From contig CALSRM010000003.1 of assembly GCA_943788755.1 (NCBI GenBank), positions 806,001 through 870,000 of the forward strand: a stretch of 64,000 nucleotides of DNA, given 5' to 3'. Source of the DNA: an uncultured Flavobacteriales bacterium (GTDB lineage Bacteria; Bacteroidota; Bacteroidia; Flavobacteriales_D; Parvicellaceae). The notes below the pieces were generated by a model. That model was given only the letters and a program-made list of their open reading frames with translations. It ran no database searches and was not told the origin of the DNA. Below are positions 26,262-55,920 of the stretch, piece after piece. Positions within the stretch are counted from its first letter, which is position 1, and every line of letters begins with the position of its first letter. The position numbers and the translations under genes were made by a program.

Positions 26262-26930
26262 TTAATGAAACTCAACGTTTGCTTTTCTTCTTAGGCTTTT
26301 TTTGAGTACAAATTTAGCCATTCCGTCACTAAAGTAAAGATAATTAAACCACCAACCTGATAAGCCTGTTTTATTCTTAAAAATCATTTTTTTACGAATA
26401 TTAAACGATTGGTAATGTTTCATTATCCCTAAATAGGAATTTAAACTGCTCAACAGGGCTTCTTGTTCCGTTTTTGTGGGTTTTTGGTTTTGTACTATTT
26501 GGTTTTGCTTACTAATGGCAGTAAAAAAATTACCTCTGGTACGGTTGGCGATGTATATTCGGTTTGGTAAAGTTACAGCTCCAATAAATTTAACGCCTTT
26601 TTTATAATGTTGTAAATGCATTTTCTTTGGATGCAGGGTAAGTTGTAAATTTGAACGCAAGAAGTTTGAAAGTTGATGAATTAGACTTTTCAAATATTCT
26701 TTGTTTGTGTGTACAATTACAAAATCATCTACATACCTGCCGTAATATTTTAGGTTTAATTCTGATTTTACATAATGGTATAAAGTATTCATATAAAAAT
26801 TAGCAAATAGTTGACTTGTTAAATTACCAATGGGTAAACCACAATTTAGCGGACTATGAAACAAGCTTTTGTTGTTGGGTAAACCGTTCCAATTACTACG
26901 CATACCTTTAATGATGCAGTTTAGGTTTTT
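26262..26930 (-). pseudogene. 5'-truncated reverse transcriptase, DGR type
   Basis: The C-terminal about 220 residues of a reverse transcriptase. GLPIGNLTSQ carries the (I/V/L)GxxxSQ motif typical of diversity-generating retroelement RTs (group II introns and retrons differ here). YGRYVDDFVIV at about 54-64 (from the ATG at 26903) is the catalytic YxDD box. LHPKKMHLQHYKKGVKFIGAV is the following thumb-proximal block. The frame is open seven to nine codons upstream of the ATG (reading NLNCIIKG), which also fits DGR RTs, and then stops where the flavin oxidase gene ends. The whole finger domain is missing, so it cannot be active. No template repeat or Avd-like gene is adjacent. Confidence 0.8.
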
Positions 26931-30621: not shown

Positions 30622-31989
30622 TTAAAAAGCTCTAATTGCCCTCAATGCACCTCCAGTAAAATTTTTACCTGTACCATTTTGAGCTCCGGTAGATAGAATT
30701 ACGGTATATGCACTTGAAATATTTAACTCTGAAGAAGACCAGTATCTAACAGACAAAAAACCAACATAGCCAGGAAAACTGAGGTTATTATAGATTTCCT
30801 TTAGTTCATCAAAACTTGGCAAATACCAATCAAAATATCCATTTAAAACCAAATCGTCACAATTTTTAGCTGCTGTGTTACTGGCACCGCTTGTGTTTAT
30901 AATTGTAGTTGTATTTGCTCGACCAGAGCCTATTGTTTGATCAGAAGCACCTGTAAGTATTGTGGTGCTACCCCAAACCCCACCTGTAGAAATGTCATTC
31001 GGACTTACCACTAAACCTGTTGCAGAAGCTGAATCTATATAAAATATGTATCCTCCTTGAAATACTTTTCCGTAAAACTCAGCTACATTGTGATTCGCTA
31101 AAATAGTTGAAATAGGTACTTCATTATCCAGGTTTTGTTGCAAAGATACGCTGCTATTGTATGCTGGTAAGCCAGTAATGGAATTAATTACAGAATCTAA
31201 ATATAATGTTGTTACAAAGCCCATATTGGAAATATCTGTTGAATCTAGTTGGGTGTCTGTATTGTCTAAGTAGGGCGATAAATCAATTGTAGTAGCTGTA
31301 CCGTTACTAGTAATGGTTAAGTTGTTGCCAGCTAATTGTAAATCTTGTATTTCGTTAGTTACTGAACCATCTACTTCTGTTGTAATTCCACCCGCAACAT
31401 AGCCTAAGTTAGCAATGTCTGTTGAATCTAGTTGGGTGTCTGTATTGTCTAAGTAGGGCGATAAATCAATTGTGGTAGCTGTACCGTTACTGGTAATGGT
31501 TAAGTTGTTACCAGCTAATTGTAAATCTTGTATTTCGTTAGTTACAGAACCATCTACTTCTGTGAACGAAACACCACCAATAATGCTATCTGCGGTATTA
31601 GCATGTAAAGCATAAGGCACACTCATTAGCTGACTTGTCCCAGTTATGGTATAAATAGTACCTCCTGTTGGGTCGGTTTCTGTTTTAATAAAGTAAGGTC
31701 CGTTACTCCAATCTATAGTATTAAACATACCTGAAACTAATGTTCCAGAACCTATTTCTATACTGACCAATCCATTAATGTTGGTGTTTGGTGTTTGTGT
31801 TTCTACATAAACTGCTGTACCGCTTGCACTACCTTGTAATATACTTATCTGCATACCTACACCTGTAGTAGTTACTAAGGCATTTCCTGCATCTCTTACT
31901 ACTGCTTGGTAGCTCAGTTTTTCTGGTACCTGAGCAAAGGCACTAGCTGTTAGTGTTACTGCTGTAAGTAAGGTGTATAGTTTTTTCAT
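30622..31989 (-). CDS. Surface protein with tail-fibre-like repeats and C-type-lectin-like (DUF1566-type) C-terminus (cassette 2)
   Basis: 455 residues. Signal peptide (ends ASAFAQ); an N-terminal beta domain beginning PEKLSYQAVVRDAGNALV, widespread in Bacteroidota fibre-like proteins; two near-identical repeats of about 48 residues (TEVDGSVTNEIQDLQLAG ... DNTDTQLDSTDI); and a C-terminal domain (about 310-455) with YFDWYLPSFDELKEIYNNL, YWSSSE and final ALRAIRAF. That end is the DUF1566/Lcl C-type-lectin-like fold, a frequent scaffold of DGR variable proteins. Here the last 50 codons are AT-rich and show no NNC-codon bias, so no sign of adenine mutagenesis. It has no T9SS domain of its own, but the gene in front of it does. 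Same architecture as the protein at 54331-55797. Confidence 0.8.
   Translation of the reverse strand: MKKLYTLLTAVTLTASAFAQVPEKLSYQAVVRDAGNALVTTTGVGMQISILQGSASGTAVYVETQTPNTNINGLVSIEIGSGTLVSGMFNTIDWSNGPYFIKTETDPTGGTIYTITGTSQLMSVPYALHANTADSIIGGVSFTEVDGSVTNEIQDLQLAGNNLTITSNGTATTIDLSPYLDNTDTQLDSTDIANLGYVAGGITTEVDGSVTNEIQDLQLAGNNLTITSNGTATTIDLSPYLDNTDTQLDSTDISNMGFVTTLYLDSVINSITGLPAYNSSVSLQQNLDNEVPISTILANHNVAEFYGKVFQGGYIFYIDSASATGLVVSPNDISTGGVWGSTTILTGASDQTIGSGRANTTTIINTSGASNTAAKNCDDLVLNGYFDWYLPSFDELKEIYNNLSFPGYVGFLSVRYWSSSELNISSAYTVILSTGAQNGTGKNFTGGALRAIRAF
31235..31563 (-). repeat. Two 146-bp direct repeats inside the fibre-like gene
   Basis: 31235-31380 and 31418-31563 have the same length and differ at only four positions by my alignment, with a 37-bp spacer. 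They encode the two TEVDGSVTNEIQ...DSTDI units. Such recent tandem copies allow length change by slippage or recombination. Confidence 0.9.
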
Positions 31990-32040: not shown

Positions 32041-32511
32041 TTACTGCTTTATTACTTTAAATGTTTTTACGCTTTGGTTGTTTCTTGTAATATTTAAAAA
32101 GAAAATTCCTTTTGATAATGCTTCCATATTTATAGTAGTATTACTTGTCATTATTCTTTTGTTTTCAATTACCTTTCCTTGTAGGTCTATTAGTTGAAAA
32201 TTTAAATTTTCTAAGGCTTCACTTTCTACTTTTAACTGCAAGTTGTTAGCTGTAGGATTAGGGTAAACACTCAATTCTAAACTAATCGTTGTTTCGTTTA
32301 CGCCTGTGGTTACAGAAATTTCGTAGGGCTGTTGCACTCCTTGTGCAACTGAGCCATTGCTTCCTGTATTTGTAGTATAGAATGCTTGTCCAACAGTGTA
32401 GCTCGATGAGCCTCCTGCTCCTGTAGCATCACCACCTGCGGCTGGTACTGTTTCTTGGGCGCTTAGTCCAAACGTACAAATCAGTGCAACTAAAATTGTT
32501 AAAGTTCTCAT
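32041..32511 (-). CDS. Small secreted protein with T9SS sorting domain (cassette 2)
   Basis: 156 residues. Signal peptide (ends FGLSAQ), then about 50 residues rich in Gly, Ser and Thr (AAGGDATGAGGSSSYTVGQ), then a type A sorting domain from about 78: LSVYPNPTANNLQLKV, LIDLQGKVIENKRI, KGIFFLNITRNNQSVKTFKVIKQ. It has almost no cargo of its own. It precedes the lectin-like gene by 51 bp in the same direction. The same arrangement is found at 53841-55797, where the homologous small protein again precedes a lectin-like protein. A role as anchor or export partner of the fibre protein is my inference. Confidence 0.8.
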   Translation of the reverse strand: MRTLTILVALICTFGLSAQETVPAAGGDATGAGGSSSYTVGQAFYTTNTGSNGSVAQGVQQPYEISVTTGVNETTISLELSVYPNPTANNLQLKVESEALENLNFQLIDLQGKVIENKRIMTSNTTINMEALSKGIFFLNITRNNQSVKTFKVIKQ

Positions 32512-50895: not shown

Positions 50896-51453
50896 GTGAA
50901 AGTAAGCGAAATATTAATAAAGCGAATAGTAAAACAAGACCGTAAAGCACAAATGGAGCTTTATCGAATTTGCTTTAGCCTACTAATGAGTGTTGCTTAT
51001 CGATATAAAAAAAATGAAGAAGATGCGTCAGCTTTATCAAACGAAGCATTTTTGAAAATTCTAACAAACATTGAAAAATATAATTCCAATAGCCCTTTTG
51101 AATCTTGGATAAGAAGAATTGCAATTAATACAGCAATTGATGACTACCGAAAGAATAAAAAAAGAGAAGAGATGTTTGAGACTGAGGATAATTTCGAAGA
51201 CTTAAAGGAAGTTACTTACAATGAAGTTGATGATACAATTGAAGCGGAAGAGTTAAACAACATGATACTAGCACTTCCAAAAGCAACAAGGGTTGTTTTT
51301 AATTTATTTGCTGTAGATGGGTATTCTCACAAAGAAATAACGGAAGAATTGGGAATAGGACTAGAAACCTCAAAATGGCACATGAAGGAGGCTAGAAAAA
51401 GATTAAAAGCGTTACTAATAAAAAGAGAAGAATTAAATGGAGTCAAAAAATAA
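50896..51453 (+). CDS. ECF RNA polymerase sigma factor
   Basis: 185 residues from a GTG (VSEILIKRIVKQDRKAQMELY). Region 2 has SNEAFLKILTNIEKYNSNSPFESWIRRIAINTAIDDYRKNKKR (parts: FESWIRRIAINTAIDDYRK, a strong ECF signature). Region 4 has LPKATRVVFNLFAVDGYSHKEITEELGIGLETSKWHMKEARKRLK (part: YSHKEITEELGI). The next gene overlaps by 17 bp and starts like an anti-sigma factor. The target regulon is unknown. Confidence 0.9.
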   Translation: MKVSEILIKRIVKQDRKAQMELYRICFSLLMSVAYRYKKNEEDASALSNEAFLKILTNIEKYNSNSPFESWIRRIAINTAIDDYRKNKKREEMFETEDNFEDLKEVTYNEVDDTIEAEELNNMILALPKATRVVFNLFAVDGYSHKEITEELGIGLETSKWHMKEARKRLKALLIKREELNGVKK

Positions 51454-52255
51454 CATAGATAAGTTATTTAAAGACAAACTGGGCAACAGGGAGTTTGACA
51501 TCAAAGAAAGTTTTTTAGCTGACCTTGAAGGGAAGTTGGATGCGCAAAAGCCAAAAAAGAAATTGTGGCGGATGTTTTTCTATGCACTCATAGCGTTAGT
51601 TGGAGTTTCGTTTTTTGCATATTATTTAGCGACCAATAATGTGAAGGATACTATTGACTCTAAAATCTCCATGGAGGATAGTAAGCAAAATGTAGTTTCA
51701 AATAAGGTTAAAAATACGGAGATTGAAGGTGTAGAGACTGAATCTGCAGAGAATATAGTTGATCTAGATACTAAAATATCCCAAAAAGAACAGCTAAAAA
51801 TTGACACTTACACTGCCAAAGAAACTGCAACTGATAGAATTAATACAGAGCTTCAACAAGAAGTAAGTAAAGAGCTGCCAGACAATACTAGTAATAATAA
51901 GAACGCGACAAAGAAAACAAAGGCTTTAAATAACAAGGAGGAACCATCTATCTCCAGAAACGGAGAGTCAAAGGCATCTTCGGTTAATAATTTAGAAAAG
52001 AATGTTACTGTAGCTTCCGATAGTCAAACCGAGGTCAAAGAAGAAACGGGGAATTCCATTAGGCCTTTTGAAAAAGTTAACGAACCAGATCTAGCGGTAA
52101 AAGAGATGAATTCAAACAATACCAAAGCTTCAAATCGTGAAATTGAAATGGTTATTGAGAAAAATGAGCCCATCTCGTTAACTGAAAAAAACTTAACTGA
52201 GACAGAAAATGAAACTTTACTTCCAGTTGATTTAGATCACTGCGGACACAAATAG
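51437..52255 (+). CDS. Anti-sigma-like N-terminal part of an anti-sigma/outer-membrane barrel protein (split gene)
   Basis: 272 codons. Short cytoplasmic part (KLFKDKLGNREFDIKESFLADLEGKL), one membrane helix (RMFFYALIALVGVSFFAYYLA), then a long acidic, Ser/Thr/Asn-rich, disordered periplasmic region. In Bacteroidota such proteins follow ECF sigma genes and end in an outer-membrane-type barrel. Here the barrel is found further on in other frames (52548-53423), with similar disordered sequence in between (52273-52572). At least three single-base shifts are needed to join them. I read the three pieces as one gene of about 660 codons. Confidence 0.75.
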   Translation: MESKNNIDKLFKDKLGNREFDIKESFLADLEGKLDAQKPKKKLWRMFFYALIALVGVSFFAYYLATNNVKDTIDSKISMEDSKQNVVSNKVKNTEIEGVETESAENIVDLDTKISQKEQLKIDTYTAKETATDRINTELQQEVSKELPDNTSNNKNATKKTKALNNKEEPSISRNGESKASSVNNLEKNVTVASDSQTEVKEETGNSIRPFEKVNEPDLAVKEMNSNNTKASNREIEMVIEKNEPISLTEKNLTETENETLLPVDLDHCGHK

Positions 52256-52272
52256 TTCGTCGGTAGTCTTAA

Positions 52273-52572
52273 ATGATAATACACAAAGAGGTCGTGGCTT
52301 CAAACAAAGAATCTATTGAAGATTCAATAAGCATAAAAGAATATACCAATATAGATCCAATCGCTTCTTTGGATTCAGTTGTGATAGATAAAGAAATTAC
52401 GCAAATCGTTTCTGATACTATTATGCAGGGTAGTTTGGCAAATGAGAATGAAGTAACAACGGGAGATTTAGGTACAAACACAACCGAAAAGGAAATTATA
52501 AGCGAAAATGATGCTGTCCCGAATGAAGAAATAATAGATCCACAATCTTGGCTGTTGATTCTATTGTTATAG
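52273..52572 (+). CDS. Middle, disordered segment of the anti-sigma/barrel protein, shifted frame
   Basis: 99 codons, acidic and repetitive (SLDSVVIDKEITQIVSDTI, NEVTTGDLGTNTTEKEI). It resembles the beginning of the next piece (VDSIVIDSLALEKEISEEFSDTL), which shows internal repeats. The initial ATG directly follows a stop, and the end (WLLILLL) is out of the natural frame. Not an independent gene in my view. Confidence 0.6.
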   Translation: MIIHKEVVASNKESIEDSISIKEYTNIDPIASLDSVVIDKEITQIVSDTIMQGSLANENEVTTGDLGTNTTEKEIISENDAVPNEEIIDPQSWLLILLL

Positions 52573-53423
52573 ATAGTTTGGCGCTGGAAAAAGAAATTTC
52601 GGAGGAGTTTTCCGACACGTTGACTAAGGATGATTCTCTTGCAAATAAGGTGGTTTTAACTCCTGAAGATGCAACGTTTAAAAAATGGACCTTTTCCGTA
52701 TTTGGAGGCCCGTCTCTGATAAATAAAAAGATAACTGGTGTCTCATCGGACGCTTACCTGACAAAAAGAAATGACGAAGAAGCTAATATCGTCTCAATGT
52801 CTTATGGGTTAAGAATGAATTATAATTTTAATGAAAAAATTAATTTTTCACTAGGGGCAAATAGTTTGACCTATGGAGAAGATGTTAATTATTCTACGAT
52901 TTACGATACTGAAACAAGTATGAGTTCCGTTTCAAAAGATAGTTCTTATTTAGATTATATATACACCGCATATCAAGATTCTAATGGAGGGTGGGACACT
53001 ATATTAACAACTATTGTTGTCGATACAACCTTTATGGTAGATACAACCATAATTAATATTAACGCAACTGATTATGCAGGAAAAAATAGATTTACCTATT
53101 TGCAAATCCCTATCATGTTTGGATATAAATTTACATTTAATAAGCTAAGTGTAAATGTAAGACTTGGCGGTTCTTATGGAATCTTGTTAAAGAATTCGGG
53201 AAGTTATGTCGACAATAACGTGAGTAATATTGAACTTCCAAATCTTAGAAAAACCATGATTAATATGGTCGCTTCTACAACGATAGCTTACCAGCTGAAA
53301 AAGATGAATGTGTTTATAGAACCTAAATTTCGATTGAATAGTGGGTCAATAATAACACATCCGGAATTCCAGCAACGTTACACTTCTATCGGCTGTAACT
53401 TCGGACTGTCATTTGATTTTTAA
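52548..53423 (+). CDS. Outer-membrane barrel C-terminal part of the anti-sigma/barrel protein, shifted frame
   Basis: 291 codons from a TTG. A short disordered start is followed from about residue 48 by a beta-barrel-type domain: KWTFSVFGGPSLINKK, SYGLRMNYNFNEKINFSLGANSLTYGED, YLQIPIMFGYKFTFNKLSVNVRLGGSYG (in parts) and final SIGCNFGLSFDF. This is the OMP_b-brl type used at the end of anti-sigma-like fusions. It follows without a ribosome-binding site, which supports the split-gene reading. Confidence 0.7.
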   Translation: MAVDSIVIDSLALEKEISEEFSDTLTKDDSLANKVVLTPEDATFKKWTFSVFGGPSLINKKITGVSSDAYLTKRNDEEANIVSMSYGLRMNYNFNEKINFSLGANSLTYGEDVNYSTIYDTETSMSSVSKDSSYLDYIYTAYQDSNGGWDTILTTIVVDTTFMVDTTIININATDYAGKNRFTYLQIPIMFGYKFTFNKLSVNVRLGGSYGILLKNSGSYVDNNVSNIELPNLRKTMINMVASTTIAYQLKKMNVFIEPKFRLNSGSIITHPEFQQRYTSIGCNFGLSFDF

Positions 53424-53511: not shown

Positions 53512-53583
53512 TGTCCCATGGTGTAACTGGCAACACGTCTGTTTTTGGTACAGAAGAGTCCAGGTTCGAGCCCTGGTGGGACA
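53512..53583 (+). tRNA. tRNA-Gln (anticodon UUG)
   Basis: 72 nt. Acceptor stem TGTCCCA/TGGGACA, D-arm with GTGTAACTGGCAAC, anticodon stem TCTGT/ACAGA with loop TTTTGGT (anticodon TTG), T-arm CCAGG TTCGAGC CCTGG. CCA is not encoded (ACT follows), as is common in this phylum. A promoter precedes and a hairpin terminator follows. Confidence 0.95.
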
Positions 53584-53598
53584 ACTAGAGAAATGACT

Positions 53599-53840: not shown

Positions 53841-54323
53841 ATGAAAAAACTACTACTACTCTTATTTATTGGAATTGTTGGAATTGGTAATGCGCAGACC
53901 ATAGAGAATGTTACTTTCAGTTCTGCTGCCTCGAGTGACGATAGCTTTCAGCCTGTGATGGGAACACCTTATGGTGCTAGTTTAAGTGGCGCAGGAGGTT
54001 CATTAGAAGTTAGTGCTTCGTATGGCGAGAGCAACTATGAGGAGAGTTCGCTGTCTGCAGAAGAACTATCCATTCAAAGTAATATTCGTGTATTCCCTAA
54101 TCCTACCACTTATATGGTAAATGTAGATTTGAGTCAACTCACTCAGGGGGATTATCAGCTTTATTTAGTGGATTTACAAGGTAAAGTGATTTACCAACAA
54201 ACTACTACCGAAAAAAGTATTGAATTAGATATGCGCAATTATTCAACAGGTTCTTATGTGCTGAAAGTGCAAACTAAAGGAACCCAGCAACTAGACACCT
54301 TTCAAATTATTAAAACAAAATAA
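53841..54323 (+). CDS. Small secreted protein with T9SS sorting domain, partner of the variable lectin gene
   Basis: 160 residues. Signal peptide (ends IGNAQ), about 60 residues rich in Ser, Gly and Ala (SGAGGSLEVSASYGE), then a type A sorting domain: IRVFPNPTTYMVNVDL, LYLVDLQGKVIYQQTT, TGSYVLKVQTKGTQQLDTFQIIKTK. It resembles the small protein at 32041-32511 in size, layout and in the LVDLQGKVI block. It ends 7 bp before the lectin-like gene, so the two are co-translated. Export or anchoring partner is inference. Confidence 0.82.
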   Translation: MKKLLLLLFIGIVGIGNAQTIENVTFSSAASSDDSFQPVMGTPYGASLSGAGGSLEVSASYGESNYEESSLSAEELSIQSNIRVFPNPTTYMVNVDLSQLTQGDYQLYLVDLQGKVIYQQTTTEKSIELDMRNYSTGSYVLKVQTKGTQQLDTFQIIKTK

Positions 54324-54330
54324 ATTAAAT

Positions 54331-55797
54331 ATGAAAAATATACTTTCCTTATTATTAATAGCAGTTCTTTCAATAAGTGCTATAGGTCAAACCAACATTC
54401 CTCAACTGGTAAGTTTTAGTGCCGTAGTAAGAGATGGAAATAATCAACCATTGGTTAATACTGCTGTTAGCATACGTTTAACATTTAGAGAAGGTGGTCA
54501 GACAGGACCTTTGGTATATTGTGCATTGCACCAAACTACCACTAATCAAAACGGCTTTATGAGTTTACAGCTCAACCGTGATGTTTTAGGAATAGGGTGT
54601 AATGGCGCTCCAAGCACCGCTTTTGAAAACATAGCTTGGGACAATGGCGATTTTTGGATGGAAGTAGAATACCAAACAGCGCCTACCCAACCTTTTGAAA
54701 ATTTGGGTCAGTTAGAATTAGCAAGTTCCTTTTATGCATTTGCAGCAGGAACAGCAGAAAGTATTTCTGGAATGGAATTAACTGGAGCAAGTAATGGAGA
54801 TGTCTTAACCTATAACATTACCTCTGGGCAATGGGAACCTATGCCTTCGGGTGGAGGTGGATTTAGTGGGGATTACAATGATTTAACCAATCAACCAACT
54901 ATACCTACAAATACAAGTGATTTAACAAATAATTCTGGGTTTATTACCAACCCTGATGACGCTGACGCAGATGCTACCAATGAGTTACAAGATTGGACCA
55001 ATTTACCAAATATACCTGCTGATTTTTCGGACAATATAGATGACGTTGATGACGCTGATGCAGATGCTACCAATGAGCTGCAAACTTTATCCGTTTCTGC
55101 AACAGGAGATACTTTATACCTACAAAATGGAGGTTTTGTAATCATTCCAGGAATCAGTGTGGCAAATTCATCAGGTGGAGGAGGCGGAAGCCCAGTATAT
55201 TGTAACGGTTCTCCAACTACCATAGTAGATGTAACCAACCCAACAACTGGAGCAATATGGATGGACCGTAATTTGGGAGCTACGCAAGCAGCTACAAGCA
55301 GCACCGATGTGGATGCTTATGGCGATTTGTACCAATGGGGTAGGTTTAGTGATGGACACCAGTGTCGCACCTCAGCAACTAACCCAACGCTAAGCAGCAC
55401 AGACCAACCTGCTCATGGTGATTTTATAACCGTAAATTCAGGTAATTACGATTGGCGCAGCCCACAAAACGACAATTTATGGCAAGGCGTAAATGGTATA
55501 AACAATCCATGTCCAAGTGGCTACCGTTTACCTACAGAAGCAGAGTTAGACGCAGAGCATTTAAGCTGGAGCAGTGACAATTCAGCTGGTGCTATAGCCT
55601 CAGCCCTTAAATTGCCCATGGCGGGCCGCCGCGACTTCAGCCTTGGTTCGCTCAGCAATGTCGGTGCCATCGGCTTCTATTGGAGCAGTACGGTTAGTGG
55701 CGCTAACGCGCGCTTCCTCTTCTTCAGCAGCAGCGATGCCGGCATGAACTTCTACAACCGAGCGTACGGGTTCTCTGTGCGTTGCCTCAAGGATTGA
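54331..55797 (+). CDS. Fibre-like protein with C-type-lectin-like (FISUMP) end; probable DGR variable protein
   Basis: 488 residues. Signal peptide (ends SAIGQ), N-terminal domain QLVSFSAVVRDGNNQPLVN, a tail-fibre-like linker (FSGDYNDLTNQPTIP, DADADATNELQ twice), a Gly-rich hinge, then a C-type-lectin-like domain of the 'Fibrobacter succinogenes paralogous' kind: WMDRNLGA, YGDLYQWGRFSDGHQCR, CPSGYRLPTEAELDAE, FYWSSTVSGANARFL and final YGFSVRCLKD. This end is a classic DGR target scaffold. The last about 60 codons are GC-rich and full of NNC codons, unlike the rest of the gene. No T9SS domain of its own. Same two-gene layout as cassette 2. Confidence 0.85.
   Translation: MKNILSLLLIAVLSISAIGQTNIPQLVSFSAVVRDGNNQPLVNTAVSIRLTFREGGQTGPLVYCALHQTTTNQNGFMSLQLNRDVLGIGCNGAPSTAFENIAWDNGDFWMEVEYQTAPTQPFENLGQLELASSFYAFAAGTAESISGMELTGASNGDVLTYNITSGQWEPMPSGGGGFSGDYNDLTNQPTIPTNTSDLTNNSGFITNPDDADADATNELQDWTNLPNIPADFSDNIDDVDDADADATNELQTLSVSATGDTLYLQNGGFVIIPGISVANSSGGGGGSPVYCNGSPTTIVDVTNPTTGAIWMDRNLGATQAATSSTDVDAYGDLYQWGRFSDGHQCRTSATNPTLSSTDQPAHGDFITVNSGNYDWRSPQNDNLWQGVNGINNPCPSGYRLPTEAELDAEHLSWSSDNSAGAIASALKLPMAGRRDFSLGSLSNVGAIGFYWSSTVSGANARFLFFSSSDAGMNFYNRAYGFSVRCLKD
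55615..55797 (+). other. Putative DGR variable region (VR) and initiation site
   Basis: By my count bases 55621-55740 are about 62 percent G+C, in a gene and region well below 45. Codons run gac, ttc, agc, ggt, gcc, atc, ggc, ttc ... ttc, ctc, ttc, ttc, agc, agc, agc ... gcc, ggc, atg, aac, ttc, tac, aac. This is the pattern expected when AAC codons of a template repeat are randomised at adenines: the third-position C is kept while positions 1 and 2 vary. The final invariant part (ttctctgtgcgttgcctcaag) would be the initiation region. No matching template repeat was seen in the window. Confidence 0.65.
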
Positions 55798-55860
55798 CAC
55801 TTTTACCCTGAGCGAAGCCGAAGGGTTGATTAGCGAAGCGATTTGATAATTTGACACTTT

Positions 55861-55888
55861 AACTCTTTGTCCCGTAGGGCATAGAGTT
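55861..55888 (+). other. Hairpin downstream of the variable region
   Basis: AACTCT/AGAGTT outer stem and TG-CCC/GGG-CA inner stem around GTA, 64 bp after the stop codon. In known DGRs a hairpin or cruciform just downstream of VR promotes retrohoming; this or the next hairpin could have that part. It has no T-run, so it is not a terminator. Confidence 0.45.
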
Positions 55889-55897
55889 TACTAAATA

Positions 55898-55920
55898 ACC
55901 CGCGTAGCGGGTCGGTTTTT
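55898..55920 (+). terminator. Hairpin with T-run (terminator, or DGR cruciform)
   Basis: ACCCGC/GCGGGT, a perfect 6-bp GC stem with a GTA loop, then CGG and five T. Most simply the terminator of the variable gene pair. Confidence 0.65.

Follow-up and report, generated by a model that had tools for sequence, protein, structure and literature searches.

The end of a lectin-like gene at 54331-55797 of the window (the whole 64,000-nucleotide stretch analysed, from an uncultured Flavobacteriales bacterium) differs from its relatives almost only at template adenines. That this gene is a target of a diversity-generating retroelement (DGR) is strongly supported by two sequence comparisons, one among the variable regions (VRs) of its own genome and one of each VR with template repeats (TRs) from other genomes. 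The best explanation as a whole is probably that a secreted lectin-like target was written by a DGR and diversified in trans, and that the cassette has decayed in this assembly. At least four targets, this gene among them, are spread across the genome. The gene would be an orphaned or remote target, either because its cassette recently decayed or because an intact one is absent from the assembly.

Adenine-confined variation at a lectin-like gene end

The features of the window on which the argument draws are as follows.
53841-54323, + strand: partner protein of 160 aa, signal-like at its N-terminus, with a C-terminal sorting domain of T9SS type A (PF18962, E=1.1e-12; TIGR04183, E=4e-10)
54331-55797, + strand: predicted DGR target gene, an open reading frame of 488 aa with a C-terminal FISUMP / C-type-lectin-like domain (Pfam/NCBIfam)
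55627-55772, + strand: VR, from the first to the last template-adenine base that differs from the template consensus, with 28 adenine-site substitutions
55773-55797, + strand: constant 3' end of the VR, TCTGTGCGTTGCCTCAAGGATTGA, near-identical across all VRs and TRs of the family
55805-55826, 55829-55850, 55861-55888 and 55898-55912, + strand: four hairpins 3' of the stop codon, with a T-run after the last
26262-26930, − strand: remnant of a DGR-type reverse transcriptase (RT), 222 codons of the C-terminal half with motifs IGNLTSQ and YVDD, the 5' half missing

The layout of the gene end is that of a VR, with a lectin-like domain at the 3' end of the gene, a constant end running up to the stop codon and stem-loops behind it. 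A sequence-only reading of this DNA had proposed that the last codons form a DGR variable region, and the adenine-confined differences described below bear this out. Its variable end exists, although the adenine substitutions span 55627-55772 rather than the 55615-55797 it had given. The abrupt rise in GC that it reported was confirmed (0.575 at 55600-55799 versus 0.29-0.49 across the preceding kilobases), as were the hairpins after the stop, which fold better than shuffled sequences (z=−2.6, folded as DNA). Sequence related to these hairpins also lies 3' of VRs in L002, L003, L004, L007, L057 and L032. The constant end occupies the position of an IMH-like element, a putative role carried over from the Bordetella phage BPP-1 DGR; the roles of stem-loop and IMH have been summarised (PMC12875486).

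The protein starts with a hydrophobic, signal-like N-terminus, in agreement with the signal peptide proposed earlier. Its C-terminus matches FISUMP/Fib_succ_major in Pfam (E=2e-7) and TIGR02145 (E=4e-7), both below the curated cut-offs. FISUMP domains have been described as DGR targets in human microbiomes (PMC4159848), as the sequence-only reading had noted. The C-terminal 200 residues were modelled (mean pLDDT 74) and the model compared with structures of the C-type-lectin fold (VIA). The Legionella Lcl C-terminal domain gave Z 6.7, and the DGR variable proteins Mtd and TvpA gave Z 5.8 and 5.4, all moderate values below 8; a Foldseek search with the domain model returned no significant match. 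The modelled C-terminus likely adopts a C-type-lectin fold.

Related copies were sought with 211 bases of the gene end in the 3.17-Mb assembly, which is 97.4% complete. Three further VRs were found: L002 at C3:1204667 (85% identical to the window), L003 at C4:60196 (84%) and L004 at C3:363730 (80%). The genome thus holds four VRs, the window included, at 80-100% identity, together with a diverged fifth match at C3:39220, and the sister species G003 holds one copy, L007. All VR copies found in these two genomes are ends of lectin-like genes, with no template among them. Frameshifts in L002-L004 are not to be over-read because the assembly contains other indels, such as the broken frames at 51437-53423. 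There, what appears to be a single gene with an outer-membrane-protein-like domain at its end is split over three open reading frames, by assembly frameshift errors or as a pseudogene. Some 255 bp before the partner and target genes, at 53512-53585, lies a tRNA-Gln (TTG) gene.

The strongest evidence comes from counting differences over the 129 columns at which three real TRs, all from other genomes, agree (51 adenine and 78 other). The window VR differs from this consensus at 24 of the 51 adenines and at one of the 78 other bases (p=6e-11). That sole non-adenine difference is common to all VRs of the genus and probably belonged to their own template. The same contrast was seen for L002 (27/51 versus 1/78) and L004 (23/51 versus 1/78). 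L003 differs at 22 of 50 adenines and seven of 78 other bases, the six further non-adenine differences showing drift or assembly error at that locus. When the four VRs of the genome were compared with each other, 38 of the 51 adenine columns were variable, versus six of the 78 others (p=2e-15). The bias is not an effect of codon position, since at positions 1 and 2 alone 39/53 adenine and 9/60 other columns vary. Adenine-site changes across the four VRs lead to G (58), T (40) and C (8). The adenines of the YWSST core are unchanged, which is attributed to selection.

Cassettes in other genomes and remnants in this one

Neither a VR query nor an AAC-rich query of the inferred template detected a TR in the 97.4%-complete assembly; the latter found the known VR sites and one weak 18-base match. 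The sequence-only reading had predicted an AAC-rich copy somewhere in the genome, and the outcome that it had set against itself, the lack of such a copy, is what the search returned. Two related genomes (97% and 94% complete) gave no TR-like match and no RT N-terminus. Templates were found farther afield. A pattern scan of public genomes recovered 31 stretches with the TATTGGAGCAG core, mostly in Bacteroidota, and four of these (L031, L034, L035 and L054) have AAC-rich TR-like copies. Two more TRs, L077 and L078, come from the same order, adjoin RT and Avd genes and are 86% identical to the inferred template. An example of an AAC-rich TR sequence is GGCAACCGCAACAACAGCAATGGTTCGCTCAACAATGTCGG. 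Viral, phage and plasmid sequences were searched as a source of the VR, and this source was rejected when no match was found.

Intact cassettes have the order VR, MutS-domain-like accessory, RT, bAvd and TR in L057, L035 and L077, the last from the same order as the window genome. The best PDB match of the cassette RT is 8ub7, and the cassette Avd matches the PHROG "Avd protein of DGR". At the TR position of the otherwise intact L057 cassette (737-930, − strand), the first half is AAC-rich and the second half VR-like; this mixed repeat reflects either a chimeric assembly or retrohoming into the template itself. The L028 and L035 contigs carry a Bacteroidota-type DGR under a MAG labelled Bifidobacterium breve, a record that looks mislabelled or contaminated.

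Other genomes hold less of the cassette. In G067 (L031), a C-terminal piece of Avd stands between the VR and the TR, the TR adjoins a thioredoxin-like gene, and no RT match was found in that genome. A homologue 72-73% identical to this thioredoxin-like gene lies directly after the VR and hairpins at L003 and at L007 in G003, with the same junction in both. A thioredoxin-like gene directly follows the TR in two distant genomes (L031 and L054), and at L003 and L007, which have no cassette, it comes after the VR. The simplest reading of this synteny is that the cassette may have been deleted repeatedly across these genomes.

Two fragments of cassette genes were found in the window genome. One is the 37-residue N-terminus of a MutS-like accessory, which follows the paralogous VR L004 at C3:363.7 kb. 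The other is the RT remnant, which is the only RVT_1 match in the genome, lies 29 kb from the target gene, begins mid-protein and abuts an oxidoreductase-like gene. The aligned part corresponds to residues 196-378 in the L057 RT and 209-413 in the L034 RT, and the remnant is 50-51% identical to the RTs of TR-bearing cassettes. The 97.4%-complete assembly yielded no full-length DGR RT, and a protein query found no Avd. No close viral relatives of the RT were found, phage and plasmid RTs being at most about 43% identical. In a phylogenetic tree, the remnant groups with the L034 RT and not with RTs of the MutS-like-type cassettes, with modest support (83/82), and may therefore belong to a second, also broken DGR. 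The remnant may thus come from a different DGR than the one that wrote the window VR.

Two candidates for additional DGR parts were rejected. The RT of G001 (L011/L012) has TSPVMSN instead of the SQ motif, a retron-like look and no TR nearby. Close to the RT remnant, an Lcl_C protein (30622-31989) was considered as a further target; on inspection its A+T-rich end has no run of NNC codons.

Probable decay of the cassette, or a possible intact one beyond the assembly

In the favoured account, the C-terminal ~50 codons of a secreted C-type-lectin-like protein would owe their sequence to mutagenic retrohoming, with an AAC-rich DGR template as the source. Diversification would have occurred in trans, because the cassette remnants lie elsewhere in the genome. 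The cassette itself would have decayed, leaving the MutS-like fragment beside the C3:363.7 kb VR and half an RT; the TR, Avd and the RT N-terminus were not found. The window VR has no private non-adenine changes, which suggests that the last retrohoming into it was recent. Counting against decay, the assembly is 97.4% complete, and an intact cassette could sit in the missing part.

A tentative alternative, less probable but to be taken seriously, is that the living organism has an intact, active DGR whose RT, Avd and TR lie in the missing 2-3%, on a plasmid that was not binned or in other population members, and that acts on the window VR in trans. The lack of private non-adenine changes extends to the L002 and L004 VRs, in keeping with this alternative. 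The orthologous loci L003 and G003 also favour it, their VRs differing by 15% and their flanks by 3.5-4.1%, with 17 of the 27 VR differences at template adenines. The faster change of the VR than of its flanks also speaks for the favoured account. The junction without the cassette is common to both loci, so any diversification later than the split would have required an RT acting in trans. Further, the G003 VR consensus lacks bases at seven columns, all of them template-adenine columns. Between L003 and G003, six gap events fall in the 161 bp of the VR and 14 in ~3.3 kb of flank, a roughly ninefold higher density in the VR. These gaps were read, as indirect evidence, as failures of the consensus where reads disagree, pointing to population variation, while collapse of unassembled paralogues would give the same pattern. 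Gaps on template-adenine columns may be a general mark of hypervariable sites in assembled metagenomes. Against an intact DGR stand the negative searches of the two related genomes, the lack of any viral, phage or plasmid relative of the VR, and the accessory-gene remnant, which indicates that at least one cassette is really broken.

It is improbable that old adenine-site variation of one paralogue was reshuffled by gene conversion, with no recent retrohoming. Conversion is possible in itself, since the copies are close paralogues and long stretches of the window and L002 flanks show 92-100% identity. However, the bases at the adenine columns are combined differently in every VR, often with three or four different bases in one column, and conversion alone creates no such combinations. 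Ordinary divergence of paralogues under diversifying selection, with no DGR, fits the mostly non-synonymous variation in a binding-type domain but is hardly credible, as it is already contradicted by the adenine counts, by near-fixed non-adenine bases at codon positions 1 and 2, and by the matching AAC-rich templates that adjoin RT and Avd genes in related genomes.

Proposed surface display and relation to known DGRs

The sequence-only reading had placed a sorting-domain partner beside the target, and the gene at 53841-54323 fits that description, ending 7 bp before the target ATG. The Pfam and NCBIfam searches found no sorting domain on the target's own C-terminus; it is carried by this separate upstream protein. 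Short T9SS-domain proteins lie ahead of the targets at the window, L002 and L003. An ORF before the L004 target has a similar tail at its end, and in L025 and L028 targets again come after similar proteins. A pair of the same design lies on the − strand at 30622-31989 and 32041-32511, in which a T9SS-domain protein stands before a secreted protein of the YQAVVRD type, whose end is Lcl_C lectin-like and has no DGR-like codons. As this type of partner also precedes a non-DGR paralogue, it is not DGR-specific; it is a feature of a class of surface protein, not of DGRs. The small upstream protein probably serves to bring the target, which has the VR at its own C-terminus, to the surface, and putative display by this route is plausible. 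A full-text literature search found no paper linking a T9SS partner to the export of a protein with a VR at its C-terminus. If the partner is required, it would explain how a VR-ended protein reaches the surface by a pathway that reads C-terminal signals. It is a long shot that these flavobacteria keep a hypervariable family of surface lectins that goes on diversifying in trans after loss of the neighbouring cassette, displayed through a separate T9SS partner because the VR occupies the C-terminus.

DGRs with FISUMP/DUF1566 targets (PMC4159848) resemble this system in their C-terminal Fib_succ_major-type target domain and adenine-confined VR; here, in contrast, the TR and a complete RT were not found in the genome, and the host is an environmental flavobacterium. 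The DiGReF survey (PMC3521204) described DGRs with more than one VR whose targets lie hundreds of kb off, as well as truncated RTs and a second RT that was strongly mutated. The paralogous VRs hundreds of kb apart and the degenerate RT gene are alike in the window genome, but the DiGReF systems keep at least one working RT/TR set and none was found here. The BPP-1 DGR, with its Mtd target, shares A-to-N template mutagenesis, a C-terminal VR with a lectin fold (a likely one here) and a stem-loop after the VR. In BPP-1, TR, Avd and RT lie next to the target, whereas the window genome has scattered remnants only, and intact relatives add a MutS-like accessory, unlike BPP-1. Since FISUMP targets, remote VRs and truncated RTs have all been described, the window gene is another case of a kind already known, here in a decayed or remote form. 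Two leads are new: the T9SS sorting partner is encoded separately, and single-base consensus gaps lie on template adenines.

Together, these genomes offer a sequence-level view of cassette decay, with intact cassettes in some Bacteroidota, a TR without an RT in one genome and scattered fragments here. A large DGR survey stated that its own mining misses remote targets (PMC8144416), and because RT-centred surveys report that such targets escape them, VR-based searches would find more. DGR targets are recognisable, and their template largely inferable, even where the retroelement is broken or absent.
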